Assembly: GCA_020850375.1 (NCBI GenBank)
Contig: JADZET010000188.1
Location: 1 to 9,592, forward strand
Source of the DNA: Phycisphaeraceae bacterium
GTDB taxonomy: Bacteria; Planctomycetota; Phycisphaerae; Phycisphaerales; Phycisphaeraceae
Length of the DNA stretch: 9,592 bases
Direction of reading: 5' to 3'
The notes under the pieces are model-generated. The model had not been told where the DNA came from. It was given only the letters and a program-made list of their open reading frames with translations, and did no database searches. Positions 1 through 9,592 of the stretch are shown in pieces. The translations under genes were made by a program, and so were the position numbers. Positions within the stretch are counted from its first letter, which is position 1; each line of letters starts with the position of its first letter.

Positions 1-758
1 CCATGCACCTCGATCTGCCCGACCTGGATGTCCAGGTCCTCCCGCCGGTCGATGTGGTCGACCTGCCCGTCGCGCATCCACAGGATCCGGTCGGAGTTGA
101 TGAGCATCTTGTGATCGTGCGTGGCCGTGACGATCGTCACCCCGCGCTCCTGCGAGAGCTGCTTGAGCAGGCCGATGATGTCCGCCCCGGTCTTGAAGTC
201 CAGGTTGGCCGTCGGTTCGTCGGCCAGGATGATCGCCGGGTCGTTCACCAGCGCCCGCGCGATGGCCACACGCTGCTGCTGCCCGCCCGAGAGCTCGTCC
301 GGCCGATGGTCCAGGCGATGGCCCAGCCCCACGAGCTCGAGCACCTGCTTGGCCTGCTGCGTCGCCTCGTGCTCGCTGGCGCCGCCGAAGATCGCCGCCA
401 GCGACACGTTCCGCAACGCCGTCAGCGACCAGATCAGGTTGTACGCCTGGAAGATGTACCCGATGTAGTGGTTCCGCACATACGCCAGCTGCCGGCTGGT
501 GAGCCGGGTCAGGTCCAGCGGCCCGATGCTCACCGACCCGTTCGTCGGCACGTCCAGGGCGCCGATCATGTTGAACAGCGTCGTCTTGCCCGACCCGCTC
601 GGGCCCATGATCGACAGGTACTCGCCCCGCTTGATGTCGAAGCTCACGTCCCGCACGGCGTAGACGTCCTCGCCGCGCAGGTGGAACAGCTTGGAGATCT
701 TGTTGACCTCGATCAGCGTGGCGCCCTTGGGGATGTCTCGTGGGATGTTCTGGGTCAT
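1..758 (-). CDS. LolD/MacB-type ABC transporter ATP-binding protein, second copy (3' end outside window)
   Basis: Nucleotide-binding subunit that would power an FtsX-type permease from the cytoplasmic face. The visible 252 residues hold every ABC motif: Walker A GPSGSGKT at about 52-59, Q-loop IFQAYNL with Gln104, signature LSGGQQQ at 156-162, Walker B with IILADEPTANLD at 176-187, and the H-loop histidine at 214 in TATHDH. DEPTANLD and LSGGQQQRVAIARA are typical of the LolD/MacB/FtsE branch. The reading frame has no stop before the window edge. ATG at 758 is chosen because an in-frame TGA lies five codons upstream (773-771) with no other start between. No Shine-Dalgarno is visible, so coupling to the upstream gene is likely. 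It starts 35 bases after the OPT-like transporter gene. It is a paralogue of the ATPase at 7924-8727, and both run past the H-loop with a tail containing D/N-L-x-I-x-V/I-G-x-I. Its partner permease may lie just left of the window or be one of the permeases seen here. Family is sure; substrate unknown. Confidence 0.96.
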   Translation of the reverse strand, partial: MTQNIPRDIPKGATLIEVNKISKLFHLRGEDVYAVRDVSFDIKRGEYLSIMGPSGSGKTTLFNMIGALDVPTNGSVSIGPLDLTRLTSRQLAYVRNHYIGYIFQAYNLIWSLTALRNVSLAAIFGGASEHEATQQAKQVLELVGLGHRLDHRPDELSGGQQQRVAIARALVNDPAIILADEPTANLDFKTGADIIGLLKQLSQERGVTIVTATHDHKMLINSDRILWMRDGQVDHIDRREDLDIQVGQIEVH

Positions 759-793: not shown

Positions 794-2866
794 TCAGAAC
801 GGCAGCTGGAAAACGCTCTTGACGAGGAACACAAAGCCGATGCCCAGCGTGGCGACCAGGCCCATGCCGCAGCTGAAGCCCGCCACGATGACCGGCACGT
901 ACTGCCGCCAGGCCAGCCCCAGCCGTTTCTGGAAGTAGTAGCGTCCGATCAGGGCCCCGATGAACTGCGGGATGATGGCGAAGGGCAACGCCTGGTTCAG
1001 CCCGCGGACGATGCCGTAGGTCAGGAAGATCGGCGCCCCGAGTGTGTTGAGCAGCCCGAACAGCAGGCCCCCGAACCCCAGCCCCCAGAGGATGTAATCC
1101 GCCCGCAACGCCTGCTCGGCCGTGCCGAAGCTCCCGAGCGTCAGCGAGTGGATGACGGCGTTGTTCTCGGCGTTGATCTCCCAGATCTGCTGGGCGAAGG
1201 GGTACTGGGCGCTGGGGATCGGCGCCAGCCCCCAGATGTAGTTGGCGAAGAACAGCGACGCCACGAGGATGATCGGCGTCAGCAGCAGCTCCGACTTCCA
1301 GATGCTCCAGAACTTCGTGCCCGTCAGCTCGCACTGCCGGTAGAAGACCGACATCGCGCCGTAGTTCTGCAGCGGCACGGGCAGGAACCAGACGTCCACC
1401 CCCTTGTAGCCCGAGAGGATGAAGGACGCCTCACGCACGAAGGGGATGTTGACCACCTCCCCGGCGATGCCCTCCATCCGGGCGGTGACGTAGCTGATCA
1501 CCGGCGTGTACAGGAAGCCGTAGAAGAGCATCACGATCATCACGCCGCGGTGCCAGTCGATCAACCACCCCGAGACCAGGATGTACGCCATGGTCGAGAG
1601 GACGTAGGTCAGCAGGATCAGCACGCTGGGCAGGTCCCCGCGTCCGCGCGGCGCCGCGTGCAGGGGGTTGGGCTCCTGCCCGCTCTCGCGGAGCTTGCGG
1701 CGGGCCTTGCGGAGCTTGATCAGCCCCTTGCTCACGGCCAGGAAGCCGACCACCGCGATGGCCAGCGACAGCCCGATGCTGAAGCTGAAGTAGAAGTCGA
1801 TGTTGTTCTTGTAGACCGTCGTCAGCAGCGGATCGTTGAAGTTCCAGGTGTGCAGGATGCCTTGATCACGCAGCAGAGGGTTGGCGATGAACGTGATGAT
1901 CATGCCGATGAACGTGCCCAGCACCGCGTAGAAGGGCAGCAGCATGCCGATCAGCAGCACGCCCAGGTCCAGCGAGATGCCCGTGGCCACCGCCGGCAGG
2001 ATGTGCTGCGTGCGGGCCGTCCAGTCCACGAACGGGATCGGCAGGATCGAGATCGGCGCCGCCAGCAGCGCCCCGGTGATCGTCGGCAGACCCAGGTACA
2101 GCAGCCCGAAGACCATCCCCATCAGACCGCCGATGGAGAACACCCGCCAACGCCAGCTCGTCGGGGCGTTGGGGTCCTTGTTCATGTCCTTCTCAGCCTT
2201 CTCCTCCTCCTGCTCCTCGGACAACGCCAGGATGCCCTGCGCCCCCAGCGGCGCCATCGGGAAGGGCAGACGCTCGATGTCGCTGGCCAGCCGGAACAGC
2301 CCGTACCCCAGGATCATGTTGTTGAGCCTGCCCATCACGGTCCCGAAGATCATCAGCCCGATCGCCGGCATCCACTGCCACATCAGGATCGATCGCTGCT
2401 CGAGCACCGCCGGATCATTCGGCGCGAACCACTTGGGCAGCGCCTCGGCGATCCCGCTGGCCTGGGCGGCGTTGGACTGGGCGTAGAACTGGTTCCACAG
2501 CATGCCCATGCCGCCGTCGAACCCGCTCGCCCCCCCGATCAGCGCCCCGGCGAGGTAGAAGAGCGTGAAGATCTCCGCCTTCTTGAGCACCTTGTTGGCC
2601 CGGCGGGCGACCTCAATAAACAGGATCAGCGTCACCCACTGCGCCGCCCCGCCGATCCCCGTGCCGGCGATCAGCCCCATGTACATCGACCCCGGCACCA
2701 TCACCAGGGCGACGAACAGGGCGCCGAGGAACGCCTGCCACGTGAAGCCGTCCTCGAACGTCTCGGGCGGCTGCATGAGGTTGCGGAACATCTCCAGTTC
2801 CGTGTCCCGACTCTTGACCGCGGGGTTGGCCGGCGGCTGGGGCTCGATGGTTGGCGGTGCACTCAC
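794..2866 (-). CDS. OPT-like polytopic membrane transporter (planctomycete 'peptide transporter' type)
   Basis: A 690-residue inner-membrane protein with roughly 13-15 hydrophobic helices by eye, for example near 44-70, 98-112, 163-190, 243-280, 296-329, 356-380, 411-462, 525-548, 591-612, 628-642 and 655-685. Length, helix number, the early GSMYMGLIAG glycine-rich segment and the LPFPMAPLGAQG motif (200-211) resemble the oligopeptide transporter (OPT) superfamily and the uncharacterised planctomycete/verrucomicrobial membrane proteins annotated as 'peptide transporter' (DUF6785/DUF6784 type). That assignment is from memory, and a true OPT identity is not proven. A highly charged loop (216-233, SEEQEEEKAEKD and following) and a basic loop (381-393) are probably cytoplasmic. 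The N-terminus (1-40) is soluble and proline-rich, with no signal peptide. The start is GTG at 2866, supported by GGAG seven bases upstream. It lies 36 bases after the giant permease gene and 35 bases before the second ATPase gene, so it sits inside an ABC operon although it is a secondary-carrier type. Likely role: import or export of small peptides or metal chelates (inference). Confidence 0.78.
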   Translation of the reverse strand: MSAPPTIEPQPPANPAVKSRDTELEMFRNLMQPPETFEDGFTWQAFLGALFVALVMVPGSMYMGLIAGTGIGGAAQWVTLILFIEVARRANKVLKKAEIFTLFYLAGALIGGASGFDGGMGMLWNQFYAQSNAAQASGIAEALPKWFAPNDPAVLEQRSILMWQWMPAIGLMIFGTVMGRLNNMILGYGLFRLASDIERLPFPMAPLGAQGILALSEEQEEEKAEKDMNKDPNAPTSWRWRVFSIGGLMGMVFGLLYLGLPTITGALLAAPISILPIPFVDWTARTQHILPAVATGISLDLGVLLIGMLLPFYAVLGTFIGMIITFIANPLLRDQGILHTWNFNDPLLTTVYKNNIDFYFSFSIGLSLAIAVVGFLAVSKGLIKLRKARRKLRESGQEPNPLHAAPRGRGDLPSVLILLTYVLSTMAYILVSGWLIDWHRGVMIVMLFYGFLYTPVISYVTARMEGIAGEVVNIPFVREASFILSGYKGVDVWFLPVPLQNYGAMSVFYRQCELTGTKFWSIWKSELLLTPIILVASLFFANYIWGLAPIPSAQYPFAQQIWEINAENNAVIHSLTLGSFGTAEQALRADYILWGLGFGGLLFGLLNTLGAPIFLTYGIVRGLNQALPFAIIPQFIGALIGRYYFQKRLGLAWRQYVPVIVAGFSCGMGLVATLGIGFVFLVKSVFQLPF

Positions 2867-2902: not shown

Positions 2903-5900
2903 TCAGACGCCCGCGCCTTGCGCGACCGGCTCGCCCTTGCGGCCGAGCTCCTCGAGGGTCTGCCGGCGATAGCCTTCGATCGCCTCGTTCGACAGCGTCC
3001 GCCACAGCAGGAACTGACGCCGCAGGTCATGCACGAACACACGGTTGGCCCGGTACCAGTCGGGCCTGGCGCCGCTGCGCCGCTCGGCCGCGATGGTCAC
3101 CTCGTCCACCCCCGGGATCTCCGACGGCGTGGCGGTCAGCCGGAACACCTCCGTCACGCCCAGGTCGAACGGCGCCAGGGCCAGCTCGGCCTCGAGCGTC
3201 AGGTGCTTCTCGTCGCCGACCTGCACGATGCGCGTGGCCGTGGTGGCGAAGATGCCCAGGCCCGCGTCGTCGTGCTGGCGGAAGTGCTCGGCCAGGAAGC
3301 TCACCACCCCCGTGATGTCGTACGACGAGACCGTAAACGGGAACTTCATCCGGATCAGGTCGTCCTGCGCCGGGGGCATCTTCCAGGCCCGCGCCAGCCC
3401 GGGGTTGGCGCTCCGCGACGCCCGCACCGCCGGGTAGATCGCCGAGACCATCACCGTGGCCATCACCACGCCGATGGCGAACATCGAGTTGGTCGAGGAG
3501 AAATTGATCGACGGCGTCTGGATCCACCCGAGCTTGGCCAGCCCCGCCGCTCCCTGGGCCACCGCCTGCGCGAGCAATTGCCCGCCCATCCCCCCGATCA
3601 CCGCGTACACCGCCGCCTCGGCGAAGAACAGGAAACCCACGTGCGCCGGCCCCAGGCCCAGGGCGCTGAAGGTGTAGATCTCCTTCTCGCGGTCGGTGAT
3701 GCTCCCGAGCATCGTCCCGAAAATGATCAGCCCCCCCAGCAGGATCGGCACCACCAGGGCCATGCCGCCCGAGACCTCCGTCAGCGTCGTGAAGAACAGG
3801 CGGTAGACGCCCTGCTCGGTGCGGGTCCAGACCGGCACCGACGTCAGCTGCGCCAGCGCGTCGCCGCGCTCGCCCGCGTCGAGCTGGCCCCGGGGATAGA
3901 GGGGCACGACATGCAGGTTGCCCCCGAGGAGCCTGACCCTCTTGCCCGAGGTGATGGCCACCTGGTTGGGGCTCAGCCGCTGGAAGTCGCGCTGGATGCG
4001 GTCGTCCGTCTGGGCCGCCTGCTGGGCGCCGCTGGCCCGCTCGGCCTCGAAGGCCACGAAGTCCACCGGCAGGATCGATCGGCCGTCGAGGTGGCGCAGA
4101 CGCTGCAACGCCGAGATGTCGATCGCTCCCGCGAAGCTCAGACGCATGCCGTCGACCATCACCGGGTCGCCTGGCCGCAGGCTCAACTGCTCCTGAAGCA
4201 GACGCGGCAGGTACACCCCGCCCTCGGCCAGGGCCTTCTTCTTGGCCTCGGTGTCACGGCCCTCGAGCGCCAGGGCCAGGTCCGGCCAGAAGTCCATCTC
4301 GGTCGGGTCGAAACCCATCACGGCGTCGACGCTCAGCGCCTTGCCGTTGTCGGCCCGCGCGATGCTCGTCTGCGCGTCGGTCCGCTGCAGCCGCACCTTC
4401 CACCAGTGGCCCATCGCCAGCGCGTGCGTCTGGGCCGGGTCGCCCAGCAGACGTTCTATCTGGCGATCCGACAGCGAGGAGTAGTCGAGCTTGCGCAGGA
4501 AGATCGCCGCCGTCTGGCCCTGCGCCGTCGGCCCCTCGTAGACGCGACGCACCCCCATCTGGCTCGACAGCGACGCGAAGCACAGGATCGTGAACGTCAG
4601 CATCACCACCGTCACCGCCGTCAGCGTCGTCCGCAGCGGCCGCCGACGCATCGTCGACATGCCCATCCCCACCGCCGCCAGCAGCGTCCCCATGGCCGAG
4701 ACCTCCACCCGGTGACGCGCCCCGCCCTGGCCCTGGCTCTCCATCAGTTGATCGCGGAACTTGCGCATGATGATGAAGCTCACCAGTGACGACAGCAGGA
4801 TGATCGCGAACGCCAGCAGGATCATCACCGGCGCCTGCGCGATGGCGAACCCCGGGTGCATCAGGTAGAGCAGCCCGAACGTCACCAGGAAACAGCCGGC
4901 GAAACCCGCCAGCCGCCCGTACACCGTGCTGCGGCAGAACAGCAGCCGCTCGAGCGAGAAGGCGAACGGGATCGCCAGCAGCAGCAGCGCGACGATCCCG
5001 TTGATCAGGTCGTTCATGGCCGCTCGCAGCGGCGTGTAGACCTGACGGCTCAGCGCCAGCGCCTGGGCCACCGCGGACTGCTCGGTGGCCAGGGACTCGT
5101 CGGCGCCGACCGCGACATCCCCGCCCTCACCCGCGGGGGAGGCCGCCTCCGGGCCGGCTTCGTGCAGCAGTCGGCCGGCCCGGCTGTGAAGTCGTTCGAG
5201 GTCGGGAAGGATCACGCCGCCGCGCCGCAGTGTGGCGAGCCGTCCCTCGTTCAGCGCCCAGAGGTCCGCCGCGGTGCCCGCGTCCGCAGGCCAGGGCAGG
5301 AGCATCTTCGAGGCCGGCACACCCATCCCCTCGGGCGCCCCGGGCGTGACCCCGAGCACGATCGCCCCGTCGGGCTGCACGATCTTGAATCGCGCCTCGC
5401 CGCGAGCTCCCTCGGCCTGGAGGTCGAAGCGGTGGGCGTAGAAGAAGGCCACGTCGTTGGCCTGGCCCATCAGGCTGCGGTTCGTGCGCAGGTCGGCGTT
5501 GGACACCGCACGCAGGACGCGCAGGCCGTTGGCCTGGTAGTCCTTGCCCCGCTGCGTCTGGACGATCACGAAGCCCTGCCCGGGGAACAGCTCGCTGCGG
5601 CCCGTGCCGGGATCGACGACATAGCTCGATGCCCGGTTGTTGATCGCCGAGACCTGGCCATGGCCGTCGAACATCGCGGCCAACCGGTGGTAGTGGATGT
5701 AGTCCCCGCCGTGGACGCCCACGAGGCTGATCCGCCCGTTGGCATCGGTCGGCTCGATGACCACCGGGTCGTAGTCCGGGATCAACACATACCCGGCCAG
5801 CGGGGCCCAGGGGTCGTTCGAGAACCAGCTCTCGCTGGGCCACGTCGCCGTGACAGCCCCGGCGGCCGGCCAGTCCTCGGTGAGGCTGCCGGTCGAGCGG

Positions 5901-7927
5901 AGAATGGCCATGTCGCCCATGATCTGGTTGGGCGACCAGTCGGGTCGGTAGGTCTTGGTCACGTTCTGGAACAGCCGCGGCAGGCTCACGTCCGGCGAGT
6001 CGACGATGCGCGACAGCAGCGCCCCGGCCGACCGGGCCTGGGTGTGGATCCGCCGCCAGTCCAGGTGCGCCAGGTCATCGACCGGCAGCCCCTGGCGGGG
6101 GCGTTCGTCGTAGCCCGTCATGATCGACAGGCCGTAGAAGCCGAAGCTGCTGGCCACGGCGCCGCTGGGCATGAACTGCCGCGCCGCGAACGTGCCGCCG
6201 TAGTCCGGGTCGTCGATCGGCCGCGAGTCGAACCCGTCGATGCCGGACGAATCCTCCCCTGAACCACCGGGATGGCCCCCCGCGGGGGCCGCCAGCCGTC
6301 CGATGACCGACAGCAGGCGCTTGTGCAGGCCCGGCGTGTCGACGTTGGCCGCCTGACGGGTCCAGAAGAACAGACGTTTGGCCGAGTGCCCCGCCACCGT
6401 GCTCCACGTCGGCCCCTGGTCGGAGAGGTCGAAGTTCGCGTGCAGGATGATCCACCGCCCGGCCGCGAGCCGGCGCAGGGCCTGACGCTGTTGGTCCATC
6501 GCCGAGAGCCGATGCAATTCCTCGAGCCGTTGGCTGATCCGCTGCCCGACGGCCTGACGCAGGTCGGCGGCGTTGTCGCGGATCATCGGCTTCTGACGCT
6601 CGATCTGGTCGGCCGACCACAGCGGGTTGGAGTGGGCCAGGCTCTGGGCCACGGCCTGATCGAGGTCGGCGGGGTCGAAGCTCGTCGGCGACCGGCTGGC
6701 ATTGTTCAGCACCCGGCGGAACTCGTCCCAGCGGTTGCGGCTGTCCTGAAGCTCGGCCATCTGGCCCCTGTGCTCCTCCGAGGCCTCGGTGGCGGTCTCG
6801 GCCAGACGCATCCGCGCCAGCTCGTCGTTGACGGCCGTGCGCACCCGTTGGGCCTCGCGATCGAGCATCTGGATGAGATTGCTCACCTGCTGCCGCGTCG
6901 GCGTCGTGCCCGGGGCGCTGATCAGGAACTGACGCATCTGCCCGAGCATCGCCTGCTCGTCGCGGTGGTCCCCGGTGAGCGTCTCCGAGACATCATCGTC
7001 CATGCACAGGGCGTCGTACACCAGACGCGCGCCCTGGTCGCTGCGGGCGTGATTGTTCAGGAAAAGAGCCAGCACGTCGCGCTTGGGCCGCTCCCTGACC
7101 ATCCCCTCGAGGGTGTGCAGAAGGGCGGCGACGTTGGCCGCGCCCGTGGCGTTGGGCGAGGCGTCGGGCACGTCACCGAAGCTGTCCAGGTCAGCCGCGA
7201 GGATGACCAGTTCCGGCTCGACGCGGGCCTCGACGAAGCCCGGGTCCGAGCCCGGGATCAGCGCCGCGAGGTTCGTCGCCGTGCCCAGCGCCCAGGTGAC
7301 CCGGCTGACGATCGTCGCCTCGGGCAGGTCGCGGTGCAGGTCCAGCCCCCCGAGCGTCGACGGCGGGGCGTAGAACCGCAGCAGGTTGGCGGGCATCACC
7401 TGGTGCTTGGCGTTCTGAACCTGCGGGCCGTCGCCGAGGAAGATCACCGCCTTGGCCCCCATGGCCATGGCATCCACCCAGTTCTGCAGGCAGTCGTAGT
7501 CCAGGACCACGATCGCCCCTTCGGGCGACCGGCCGCCGTACTCGGCCAGCGTGCCCGAGCCCGCGTAGATCACCGGCCCGCTGACCCCCTCCGGCCCGGT
7601 CGAGGGCGGGACGATCAGGTTCGGCCGCATCGGCAGCAGCGGGTACTTCTTGTCGCCGATCCGCAGCTCGCATTGGAGCACCTTCGTCTGCCAGACCGGC
7701 ATCTCCATCCGCAGCACCTGCTCGACCCCCATCGCACGCAGACGCTGCTCGACGTAGCTCACCGCGGCCTCGCCCTCGGCGGTGCCCGCCAGGCGGTGCG
7801 GCGCCGCGGTCAGCGCCTGGATGTCAGCCAGGAACGACCTCTCGTCGGCCGTCAGCGACTCGGCCGCGACCGAGAAGCACAACAGGCCCGCGATCAGCAC
7901 GAGGAGCATGTCACGCCAACGCATCAT
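2903..7927 (-). CDS. giant FtsX/MacB-type ABC permease fused to a degenerate M28-peptidase-like ectodomain
   Basis: A 1674-residue envelope protein. Order of parts: signal peptide 1-22 (likely cut after VAA); M28-type N-terminal helix 28-70 with PHRLAGTAEGE; a PA-like insert about 110-170; first M28 half 216-305; Glu/Arg/Gln-rich helical, probably coiled-coil insert about 320-485; second M28 half about 486-645; beta-rich region about 705-880 with TDANGRISLVGV (727-738), like carboxypeptidase-regulatory domains; three extra helices about 970-992, 1004-1023 and 1031-1054; then a full FtsX permease: helix 1098-1121, periplasmic domain 1122-1378, helices 1385-1409, 1427-1455 and 1482-1503 with SITDREKEIYTFSALGLGP and YPAVRASRSANP; and a soluble tail 1520-1674. 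Basic residues at RRRPLRT (1094-1100) and RKFRDQ (1055-1060) fit a periplasmic ectodomain and a cytoplasmic tail. Zinc and catalytic positions of M28 look lost: His to Asp246, Asp to Pro258, the Glu-Glu pair to His293-Ala294, last His to Gly613; only Asp248 and perhaps Asp500 remain. The start ATG overlaps the ATPase stop (ATGA) and has a strong GGAGG. It probably partners the upstream ATPase. The FtsX part is certain and the M28 fold likely; inactivity is inferred. Confidence 0.93.
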   Translation of the reverse strand: MMRWRDMLLVLIAGLLCFSVAAESLTADERSFLADIQALTAAPHRLAGTAEGEAAVSYVEQRLRAMGVEQVLRMEMPVWQTKVLQCELRIGDKKYPLLPMRPNLIVPPSTGPEGVSGPVIYAGSGTLAEYGGRSPEGAIVVLDYDCLQNWVDAMAMGAKAVIFLGDGPQVQNAKHQVMPANLLRFYAPPSTLGGLDLHRDLPEATIVSRVTWALGTATNLAALIPGSDPGFVEARVEPELVILAADLDSFGDVPDASPNATGAANVAALLHTLEGMVRERPKRDVLALFLNNHARSDQGARLVYDALCMDDDVSETLTGDHRDEQAMLGQMRQFLISAPGTTPTRQQVSNLIQMLDREAQRVRTAVNDELARMRLAETATEASEEHRGQMAELQDSRNRWDEFRRVLNNASRSPTSFDPADLDQAVAQSLAHSNPLWSADQIERQKPMIRDNAADLRQAVGQRISQRLEELHRLSAMDQQRQALRRLAAGRWIILHANFDLSDQGPTWSTVAGHSAKRLFFWTRQAANVDTPGLHKRLLSVIGRLAAPAGGHPGGSGEDSSGIDGFDSRPIDDPDYGGTFAARQFMPSGAVASSFGFYGLSIMTGYDERPRQGLPVDDLAHLDWRRIHTQARSAGALLSRIVDSPDVSLPRLFQNVTKTYRPDWSPNQIMGDMAILRSTGSLTEDWPAAGAVTATWPSESWFSNDPWAPLAGYVLIPDYDPVVIEPTDANGRISLVGVHGGDYIHYHRLAAMFDGHGQVSAINNRASSYVVDPGTGRSELFPGQGFVIVQTQRGKDYQANGLRVLRAVSNADLRTNRSLMGQANDVAFFYAHRFDLQAEGARGEARFKIVQPDGAIVLGVTPGAPEGMGVPASKMLLPWPADAGTAADLWALNEGRLATLRRGGVILPDLERLHSRAGRLLHEAGPEAASPAGEGGDVAVGADESLATEQSAVAQALALSRQVYTPLRAAMNDLINGIVALLLLAIPFAFSLERLLFCRSTVYGRLAGFAGCFLVTFGLLYLMHPGFAIAQAPVMILLAFAIILLSSLVSFIIMRKFRDQLMESQGQGGARHRVEVSAMGTLLAAVGMGMSTMRRRPLRTTLTAVTVVMLTFTILCFASLSSQMGVRRVYEGPTAQGQTAAIFLRKLDYSSLSDRQIERLLGDPAQTHALAMGHWWKVRLQRTDAQTSIARADNGKALSVDAVMGFDPTEMDFWPDLALALEGRDTEAKKKALAEGGVYLPRLLQEQLSLRPGDPVMVDGMRLSFAGAIDISALQRLRHLDGRSILPVDFVAFEAERASGAQQAAQTDDRIQRDFQRLSPNQVAITSGKRVRLLGGNLHVVPLYPRGQLDAGERGDALAQLTSVPVWTRTEQGVYRLFFTTLTEVSGGMALVVPILLGGLIIFGTMLGSITDREKEIYTFSALGLGPAHVGFLFFAEAAVYAVIGGMGGQLLAQAVAQGAAGLAKLGWIQTPSINFSSTNSMFAIGVVMATVMVSAIYPAVRASRSANPGLARAWKMPPAQDDLIRMKFPFTVSSYDITGVVSFLAEHFRQHDDAGLGIFATTATRIVQVGDEKHLTLEAELALAPFDLGVTEVFRLTATPSEIPGVDEVTIAAERRSGARPDWYRANRVFVHDLRRQFLLWRTLSNEAIEGYRRQTLEELGRKGEPVAQGAGV
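5125..5142. repeat. GC-rich imperfect palindrome inside the giant permease gene
   Basis: An 18-base near-palindrome centred between 5133 and 5134 has arms of nine with one A-G mismatch. It encodes part of the low-complexity linker SPAGEGG (about 930-936) between the beta region and the first membrane helix. It may be a chance product of Gly/Pro codons in GC-rich DNA or a remnant of a short inserted element. Confidence 0.35.
6274..6290. repeat. perfect 7-base inverted repeat inside the giant permease gene
   Basis: GGCCCCC and GGGGGCC flank a three-base CGC loop. The element falls in a Gly/Pro/Ala-rich stretch (about 546-560, LAAPAGGHPGGSG) that interrupts the second M28 half. The origin is unknown, and chance is possible in such GC-rich DNA. 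Confidence 0.4.
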
Positions 7928-7940
7928 TCCTCGCCTCCGA
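7924..7940 (-). promoter_or_regulatory. stop/start overlap and ribosome binding site joining the ATPase and giant permease genes
   Basis: The ATPase ends in TGA (7926-7924), which shares four bases with the ATG of the giant permease (7927-7925). A GGAGG at 7938-7934 sits six bases before that ATG. This arrangement predicts translational coupling, as expected for subunits of one complex. A second ATG follows immediately (7924-7922), so initiation at either codon differs by a single Met. Confidence 0.85.
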
Positions 7941-8727
7941 TCCGGCCGATGGTGATCTTGAGGTTCTGCCGCGCCTCGACCCGCTCGATCCGACCGTCAC
8001 GCACCCACATGATCCGGTCGCAGATGTTCAGCAGCCGATGGTCGTGCGTCGCGCACACGATCGTCACCCCGCGCTCCTGGTTGATCCGCTGCATGATGTT
8101 GAGGATTTCCTGCCCCGTCTTGAGGTCCAGGTTCCCCGTCGGCTCGTCGGCCAGCAGGATCTTGGGCTCGTTGCACATTGCCCGCGCGATCGCCACGCGC
8201 TGCTGCTGACCCCCCGACATCTCGATCGGACGGTGCGACCAGCGGTTCTCCAGCCCCACGAGCTTGAGCAGCTTCATCCCGCGACGCCTCGCCTCCTCGG
8301 GCTTGACCCCCGCGAAGGTCATCGGCACCGTCACGTTCTCCAACGCCGTCATGTAACGGATCAGGTTGTAGCTCTGGAAGATGTACCCGATCTTCTGACA
8401 ACGCAAAAACGCCAACTCGCTGGCGCTCAGCTGCGCCACGTCCACCTCGTCGATCAGCACCCGACCCTCGCTCGGCGAGTCCAGCGCCCCGATCATGTTG
8501 AAGAACGTGCTCTTGCCCGACCCGCTCGGACCCAGCACCGAGATGAACTCCCCGCGATAGATCGTCGCATCGACGCTCCGCAGCGCGTGCGTGACCGCCT
8601 CCCCCATGCCGTACCTCTTGCACAGCCCCAGCGTGCGGATGATGATCGGCTTGTCCGCCCCGGATCCCGCCCCCGGAAGGGGAGGGGGGGTTGCCGTCGC
8701 CGGTGAAGATGTCTGGCTCTGTGTCAA
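7924..8727 (-). CDS. LolD/MacB-type ABC transporter ATP-binding protein, first copy
   Basis: Cytoplasmic ATPase subunit expected to energise the adjacent FtsX permeases. With a TTG start at 8727 it has 267 residues: a proline/glycine/alanine-rich N-terminus (6-27), Walker A GPSGSGKS at 66-73, Q-loop IFQSYNL with Gln118, signature MSGGQQQ at 170-176 (Met in place of the usual Leu), Walker B KILLADEPTGNLD at 189-201, and H-loop His228. The TTG start is preferred because GGAGG lies eight bases before it. An upstream in-frame GTG at 8763 would add 12 residues, overlap the preceding permease gene by 11 bases and lack a good binding site. All catalytic residues are present, so it should be active. 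It is a paralogue of the ATPase at 1-758, with short blocks of identical DNA. Its place between two FtsX permease genes matches the lolC-lolD-lolE order, though a Lol function is not shown. Confidence 0.96.
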   Translation of the reverse strand: MTQSQTSSPATATPPPLPGAGSGADKPIIIRTLGLCKRYGMGEAVTHALRSVDATIYRGEFISVLGPSGSGKSTFFNMIGALDSPSEGRVLIDEVDVAQLSASELAFLRCQKIGYIFQSYNLIRYMTALENVTVPMTFAGVKPEEARRRGMKLLKLVGLENRWSHRPIEMSGGQQQRVAIARAMCNEPKILLADEPTGNLDLKTGQEILNIMQRINQERGVTIVCATHDHRLLNICDRIMWVRDGRIERVEARQNLKITIGRIGGEE

Positions 8728-8735
8728 CGCAAATT

Positions 8736-8740
8736 CCTCC
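8736..8740 (-). promoter_or_regulatory. ribosome binding site that decides the TTG start of the first ATPase
   Basis: The transcript carries GGAGG, then eight bases, then TTG at 8727. It lies in the 25-base gap after the upstream permease stop (TAA at 8755-8753). It is a perfect anti-16S match, whereas the alternative GTG at 8763 has only a weak GGAAG-like element. Confidence 0.7.
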
Positions 8741-8752
8741 GGCCATGCCGGT

Positions 8753-9592
8753 TTAGTCCACACGCATCGCTTCCATCGGCGCCAGCCGCGCCGCCGTCCA
8801 CGCCGGCCCGATCGACGCCACCGCCCCGAGCATCAGCCCCGCCGCCACCGACAACGCCCCGCCCGTCAGCACGTCCCCCCACGGCATCGACGGGAACACC
8901 AGCGCCCCGAGCGTGATCCACCCCCGCAGCACCGCCAGCCCCACCCCCAGCACCACCCCCACGATCCCCCCGAGCAGCCCCTGGATCGTCGCCTCGAAGA
9001 AGAACATCAGCAGCAGGAAACCGTCGAGCGCGCCCAGGCACTTCATCGTCGCGATCTCCGTGAACCGCTCGGTCACCGACATCATCATCGCGTTGATCAC
9101 CCCGATGGCGCAGACCAGGAACGACACCAGCACCAGCCACCGTGTCCAGTTGGGCAGGTCCAGCAACCCCTCGCGTACCTTCGGCTCGGTCGTCCCCTGG
9201 ATCGACTCGAGCCGGCCCTGCTTCCGCTCCGACTCGGCCAGGGCCAGCAGCCGCGTGGCCGAGAGATCCGTCTGGGGATCCTGCTTGACCAGCTCGTCCG
9301 CCAGCGATCGCGCCCGCGACTCGCTCCGCAGCCAGTTGATCGTACGCGTCAGGTCCACCTCACGGGGGTTGATCGACAGATGCCGGGCCATCGCCGCGCG
9401 GACCGCGGAGGTCTCGAGCAGGGGCTTGAGGTGCTGCACGTCCACCAGGCGCTGGGCGTGGCGCTTGAGCGAGCCAAGGGTGCCCGCGACGTCGTCGCCG
9501 ATCGCGTAGCCCGCCCGCTCGATGGCCGCGCCAAGCTCCGGCGGTGAGGCCGCGAGCAGGTCCACCGCGTCCACATCCCCGCCGGCCCGCCG
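8753..9592 (-). CDS. FtsX/MacB-type ABC transporter permease (5' end outside window)
   Basis: C-terminal 279 residues of an inner-membrane permease; the frame is open to the right edge, so the N-terminal helix and start are missing. About 148 visible residues form a soluble, helix-rich extracytoplasmic part. They are followed by the three C-terminal FtsX helices (visible residues about 149-172, 191-221 and 239-264). Between the first two is the FtsX/MacB coupling segment with SVTERFTEIATMKCLGALDG, and the end reads PAWTAARLAPMEAMRVD, very close to the usual MacB/LolC ending PxxxAAxxxPxEALR. These helices and the cytoplasmic coupling segment contact the ATPase in the family. The gene ends 25 bases before the ATPase start. 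It is the natural partner of that ATPase, and possibly of the giant permease as a heterodimer. Unlike MacB itself, the ATPase is a separate gene. Substrate unknown: lipoprotein, drug or lytic-enzyme control are all possible for this family. Confidence 0.93.
   Translation of the reverse strand, partial: RRAGGDVDAVDLLAASPPELGAAIERAGYAIGDDVAGTLGSLKRHAQRLVDVQHLKPLLETSAVRAAMARHLSINPREVDLTRTINWLRSESRARSLADELVKQDPQTDLSATRLLALAESERKQGRLESIQGTTEPKVREGLLDLPNWTRWLVLVSFLVCAIGVINAMMMSVTERFTEIATMKCLGALDGFLLLMFFFEATIQGLLGGIVGVVLGVGLAVLRGWITLGALVFPSMPWGDVLTGGALSVAAGLMLGAVASIGPAWTAARLAPMEAMRVD

Follow-up and report, generated by a model that had tools for sequence, protein, structure and literature searches.

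The window analysed here, a stretch of 9,592 nucleotides from contig JADZET010000188.1 of a Phycisphaeraceae bacterium, carries on its minus strand a gene that we call M28/FtsX. It encodes a protein of 1,674 amino acid residues (2903-7927), with a frame that is open throughout. The M28-like part lies in its N-terminal half, and a type VII ATP-binding cassette (ABC) permease follows in the membrane. M28 aminopeptidases have five zinc ligands, numbered here as sites 1 to 5, and a Glu general base. The protein is laid out as follows, 2ek8 and YwaD being the M28 aminopeptidases of Aneurinibacillus and B. subtilis.

7859-7927, minus strand: residues 1-23, a hydrophobic N-terminal stretch of the translation, probably a signal peptide
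7706-7858, minus strand: residues 24-74, M28-fold lead-in (HRLAGTAEGE)
7223-7705, minus strand: residues ~75-235, PA-type insertion, across which the alignment to 2ek8 and YwaD continues
6998-7222, minus strand: residues 236-310, first half of the M28 core, with Asp246 (site 1), Asp248, Thr261/Gly262 (loop of site 2), His293 (base position) and Ala294 (site 3)
6464-6997, minus strand: residues 311-488, helical insertion, from the secondary structure of the model
5978-6463, minus strand: residues 489-650, second half of the M28 core, with Asp500 (site 4) and Gly613 (site 5), from the model and the family alignment
5288-5977, minus strand: residues 651-880, beta-rich region, from the secondary structure of the model
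4988-5287, minus strand: residues 881-980, juxtamembrane helices, with the highly conserved Asp888, Arg896, His914, Tyr964 and Asp973
4697-4987, minus strand: residues ~981-1077, three extra predicted transmembrane (TM) helices, the first of which starts before 981, from model helices and hydrophobic sequence
3410-4696, minus strand: type VII ABC permease, with TM1 at ~1078-1117, a MacB/LolC-like periplasmic domain at ~1121-1384 and the FtsX C-terminal TM2-4 at ~1388-1506
2903-3409, minus strand: residues 1507-1674, a conserved, presumably cytoplasmic C-terminal domain

The first-pass annotation of this DNA had described an M28-like ectodomain with most of its metal and catalytic residues replaced, and the predicted model, the profile alignments and the family alignment all bear this out. 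The M28 fold is present in the model, the check that the annotation had proposed, and in the profile alignment to 2ek8 and YwaD, which ends near residue 310. Both of these aminopeptidases carry a PA domain; in the relative P0252 the PA model scores 23.4 bits, just below its cut-off of 23.9. A search with a hidden Markov model of the M28 family, also suggested there, gave a divided answer. The window protein has no match to PF04389 at the gathering score, whereas all five relatives scanned, which were picked among those with a precomputed match, exceed it; 19 of the 41 proteins found with the window protein as query have such a match.

The permease assignment is based on a model of residues 660-1674 (predicted local distance difference test score 80.9), in which residues ~1077-1511 match HrtB, MacB, LolC and FtsX. 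The type VII hallmarks are present: an FtsX-type TM core, a periplasmic domain between TM1 and TM2, and an ABC_tran gene adjoining the M28/FtsX gene. The protein thus shares with LolCDE, MacB and FtsX the fold of the transmembrane and periplasmic core and the ABC ATPases in the operon, and it differs from them in an added N-terminal ectodomain of ~950 residues and in the three extra predicted TM helices. These helices, placed before TM1, would lead the chain from the ectodomain in the periplasm to TM1, which starts on the cytoplasmic side.

The zinc ligands of the Aeromonas enzyme, 1amp, are His97, Asp117, Glu152, Asp179 and His256, as tabulated in PMC7522609. Profile alignment to 2ek8 places Asp246 at site 1, Ala294 at site 3 and His293 at the base. 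Site 2 coincides with the loss of a single residue between Thr261 and Gly262, the loop of the bridging Asp being one residue shorter than in 2ek8. Because the profile alignment stops near residue 310, site 4 (Asp500) and site 5 (Gly613) were mapped by the family alignment and the strand order of the model; sites 1-3 and the base were mapped through 2ek8 and YwaD. The residues named in the first-pass annotation are the same at every position except site 2, which it had put at Pro258 and which lies at the Thr261/Gly262 deletion in our register. The set of five zinc ligands is therefore incomplete, the Glu base is His293, and none of the sequence or profile alignments made places intact His/Asp/Glu ligands at the metal site. 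Compared with the Vibrio/Aeromonas (3b35/1amp), Aneurinibacillus and B. subtilis enzymes, the window protein has sites 1, 2, 3 and 5 and the base replaced, and differs further in the shortened loop, the helical insertion and the fusion to a permease.

As a control, a loosened pattern of active M28 enzymes was found in 2 of 22 PF04389 loci from eight sister genomes (L089 and L090), a stricter one in L090 only; the 22 loci include several family members, and L089 also gave one chance frame. Both controls aligned poorly inside the family alignment, which is why sites 1-3 and the base were placed through 2ek8 and YwaD instead.

An Aeromonas aminopeptidase mutant, E151H, is called functional in the title of 2anp and in a reference title in PMC4320195, so that the change of the base from Glu to His is not fatal by itself. 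The loss of sites 2, 3 and 5, as read from the alignments, is the stronger argument for a pseudo-peptidase. The same mutant would fit an enzyme, be it hydrolase or transferase, that works with an altered one-metal site like the one in the GPAA1 models or with His293 as base, and Asp246, His293 and Asp500 do occupy site 1, the base position and site 4. We consider such an enzyme very improbable. Sites 2, 3 and 5 are all absent; positions 246 and 293 vary among the 34 close members of the family (the window protein included), the former being H, D, N, P, A, Y, G, R or T and the latter Q, H, R, E or D; and the GPAA1 models, as presented in PMC7522609, keep acidic residues at sites 2-4, which the window protein lacks.

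The family extends well beyond the window. The search with the window protein gave 41 proteins, itself included, and a search with a profile of distant members gave 605. The few members with names, among the best 120 of the 605 and the 41, belong to Planctomycetota, Armatimonadota, Poribacteria and Zipacnadales, and some bear the database name "M28 family peptidase". We aligned 207 rows, the window included: P0001-P0041, P0162-P0280 (the best 120 of the 605, less one that was known before) and 47 genome open reading frames of at least 1,500 residues. The L001 frame, being the same protein as P0002, and shorter frames were left out; further duplicates across the sets stayed in. The conservation check proposed in the first-pass annotation shows the canonical residues to be lost across the family. 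None of the 207 rows has Glu at site 3, and none has His at site 5, the latter zero being weaker for ~48 rows (mostly long, Poribacteria-type proteins with large insertions) in which sites 4 and 5 are poorly aligned; the base Glu occurs in 4/207 and the site-1 His in 18/207. No member keeps more than three of the six canonical positions. Asp248, the Asp beyond site 1, is retained in 196/207, and position 261, Thr in the window protein, is Arg in 30 of the 34 close members.

The 126 distant members follow a pattern of their own, in which 123 have Tyr or Phe at site 1, 125 have His at the base position and 112 have Phe at site 3. An acidic residue stands at an alternative site-2 position in 125 of the 126, often with acidic residues at sites 4 and 5 as well. 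Since the metal-site residues are lost family-wide and the distant branch has its own regular pattern, the loss looks old; in that branch the pocket, and perhaps the metal site itself, may have been remodelled. Long relatives of ~2,400 residues (those with names from Poribacteria), P0183 among them, have a LysM domain in the ectodomain; PF01476 is precomputed in many of them, hinting at contact with peptidoglycan.

The closest orthologue found, L001, comes from a Phycisphaeraceae assembly and shows 89% identity across the full length, against 82% within residues 1-660. In one pairwise Nei-Gojobori comparison of the window with L001, the ratio of nonsynonymous to synonymous substitution (dN/dS) is 0.238 over residues 24-650 and 0.104 over residues 236-310; the helical insertion gives 0.32 and the permease 0.065. 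The M28-fold domain is under purifying selection. In the family alignment the helical insertion is the least conserved part of the ectodomain, on a par with the signal stretch, and among the ectodomain positions with the highest conservation are Tyr964, Arg896 and Asp973 of the juxtamembrane helices and several residues of the PA region. A decaying, non-functional gene is hardly credible: in-frame stops occur in a few relatives (G115 contig 414, G357 contig 1, G146 contig 633 and G220 contig 90), whereas the frame of 1,674 residues is open, dN/dS is well below 1 in every part tested, and the operon recurs.

The genes around M28/FtsX in the window are the following.

8753-9574, minus strand: second FtsX-type permease (PF02687, 50.2 bits), which precedes ABC ATPase 1 and is cut by the window edge
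7924-8763, minus strand: ABC ATPase 1 (PF00005, 112.7 bits), upstream of the M28/FtsX gene, with a four-base overlap with its start
794-2866, minus strand: membrane protein of 690 residues, probably of the oligopeptide transporter (OPT) group, directly downstream of the M28/FtsX gene
1-758, minus strand: ABC ATPase 2, from its translation, downstream of the OPT gene, with its 3' end cut by the window edge

In the L001 locus the second permease has a longer counterpart (L001:2841-4319), and the counterpart of ABC ATPase 2 (L001:12372-13166) matches PF00005 at 118.5 bits.

The OPT partnership, absent from the first-pass annotation, is the most informative new result. The OPT-group neighbour has 3,045 homologues, and among the best 120 several are named peptide transporter. 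Four of seven proteins scanned (P0043, P0050, P0085 and P0154) pass the PF03169 cut-off, and a PDB profile search with the neighbour found no relative; the probable assignment of the 794-2866 product to the OPT group rests on its relatives. In 46 of 52 planctomycete loci the M28/FtsX gene is immediately followed, on its own strand, by an OPT-type gene, and so it is in 43 of the 46 loci with at least 600 nucleotides of room, the misses being L041, L071 and L085. The 52 are those, among 54 loci read (L001, L035-L087), whose M28/FtsX frame is 1,200 residues or longer, L059 and L087 having been dropped; they are not independent, some genomes contributing two. An ABC ATPase within 6 kb (32/52) and a second FtsX permease (28/52) are less constant than the OPT gene. 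Across 392 planctomycete genomes, the M28/FtsX gene was found in 48 and the OPT gene in 47, all within those 48 (hypergeometric probability 2.9e-60, shared ancestry ignored); only G080 has the former without the latter. The 48 were counted by eye at E <= 1e-30, the next best genome standing at 3.5e-10; this strict cut-off was used because 326 of the 392 genomes give a match, largely by way of the widespread FtsX domain. The phylum search had started from the genome of L001, the sole locus found by a contig scan with the full protein.

We propose, with a probability of roughly 0.55, that the M28 fold is a non-catalytic binding or docking ectodomain, moved at the expense of ATP through the type VII permease and acting with the OPT-group protein. 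Since the co-catalytic zinc site is gone, judging by the aligned residues, the ectodomain of this giant permease subunit, with its PA-type and helical insertions, would hydrolyse no peptides. By analogy with type VII ABC transporters in general, ATP binding by the ABC ATPases of the operon would move the FtsX-type transmembrane helices, and the movement would pass through the conserved juxtamembrane helices to the M28-fold module. Because the gene partnership is near-obligatory, we infer that the complex would act jointly with the OPT-group protein; most likely, it would catch a peptide-like ligand outside the membrane and hand it over to the OPT transporter or control that transporter. The OPT partner shifts the balance towards ligand handling together with a transporter.

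Several observations weigh against this proposal. Physical contact with the OPT protein and binding of a ligand are suppositions drawn from the gene partnership. The PF03169 cut-off is missed by the window OPT-type protein itself, by P0042, its closest relative, and by the frame in the distant planctomycete locus L068, and for a few OPT genes no M28/FtsX place was found alongside (G357 contig 1 near 204 kb, G131 contig 13, and several on other contigs). No ABC ATPase was found in 20 of the 52 loci, some of which reach contig ends; L060, L061, L065, L066 and L077 carry the M28/FtsX and OPT pair with none found despite more than 6 kb on each side, and their ATPase may be encoded elsewhere. The former ligand and base positions are only moderately conserved, ranking 85-396 among 957 ectodomain columns; conservation does not peak there, which does not speak for a cleft re-used by a single fixed ligand. 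Finally, the members with His at site 1, the acidic residues near site 2 in the distant branch and the His at the base position in 160/207 rows leave room for a rebuilt metal site in such members.

It is possible, if doubtful, that the ectodomain is instead a docking scaffold for another envelope process, in the manner of FtsEX or YbbAP and concerned with peptidoglycan, lipoproteins or lipids, the OPT-type protein then serving as a structural subunit or in lipid handling and not importing peptides. As described in PMC12646458, known type VII systems as a rule do their work on the periplasmic face and carry no substrate through the membrane, and it is their partner proteins that define them; the LysM domain of P0183 and other long relatives would suit such a role. 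Against this, the partner gene that is kept most constantly belongs to a transporter group, none of the scanned neighbour clusters common to at least four loci was seen to encode a peptidoglycan hydrolase, and LysM is listed for 0/41 of the proteins from the query search, the genome loci not having been scanned for it. The same neighbour clusters bear on a BceAB-like peptide or envelope sensor, in which a ligand on the M28 fold would alter the ATPase state and so signal. They include no two-component gene that we could identify; the recurring neighbours are permeases, ABC ATPases, the OPT-type protein, the most constant of them, and a DUF6785/DUF6784 protein. A sensor is accordingly quite improbable. 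The first-pass annotation had seen a pseudo-peptidase attached to an ABC permease, which the fold, the residue loss across the 207 members and the purifying selection uphold; for its further suggestion of a substrate or peptide sensor we found nothing specific in favour.

It is tempting to go beyond a non-catalytic ectodomain acting with the OPT protein and to picture a hybrid uptake machine, in which an ATP-driven type VII ABC complex captures peptide-like ligands with its dead aminopeptidase ectodomain and passes them to an OPT secondary transporter that is dedicated to it and part of one assembly with it. Such machines would occur in Planctomycetota and perhaps also in Armatimonadota and Poribacteria. 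We put this forward tentatively and think it unlikely in so complete a form. Each part is already known; the combination was not met in a literature search, where the titles and abstract openings of part of the matches described neither an M28-fold/FtsX fusion nor a pair of an OPT protein and a type VII ABC system. The E. coli YbbAP-TesA system is an example of a type VII permease working with a periplasmic hydrolase. However, TesA is active, stands as a protein in its own right and belongs to another family, whereas the module described here is fused, would lack a catalytic site and has an OPT-type gene adjoining.

Transferrin receptor 1, nicastrin and nicalin are non-catalytic M28-fold ectodomains of eukaryotes. 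If our proposal is correct, the window protein would be their bacterial counterpart, differing from them in being fused to a mechanical ABC permease; it stands in a family partly named "M28 family peptidase" in databases. The type VII ABC transporters would then extend to working with a secondary transporter, and the tight link to OPT offers a testable first function for the family.

Other genes recur or stand near the operon. The DUF6785/DUF6784 protein is present in 18 of the 52 loci (for example L001:7-1470 and L052:11928-14297), and a small HEAT-repeat protein with a lipoprotein-like start lies near the operon in four loci (including L066:5846-6625). In the closest relative an alpha-L-rhamnosidase gene (L001:13275-15713) is found 3' of the operon.
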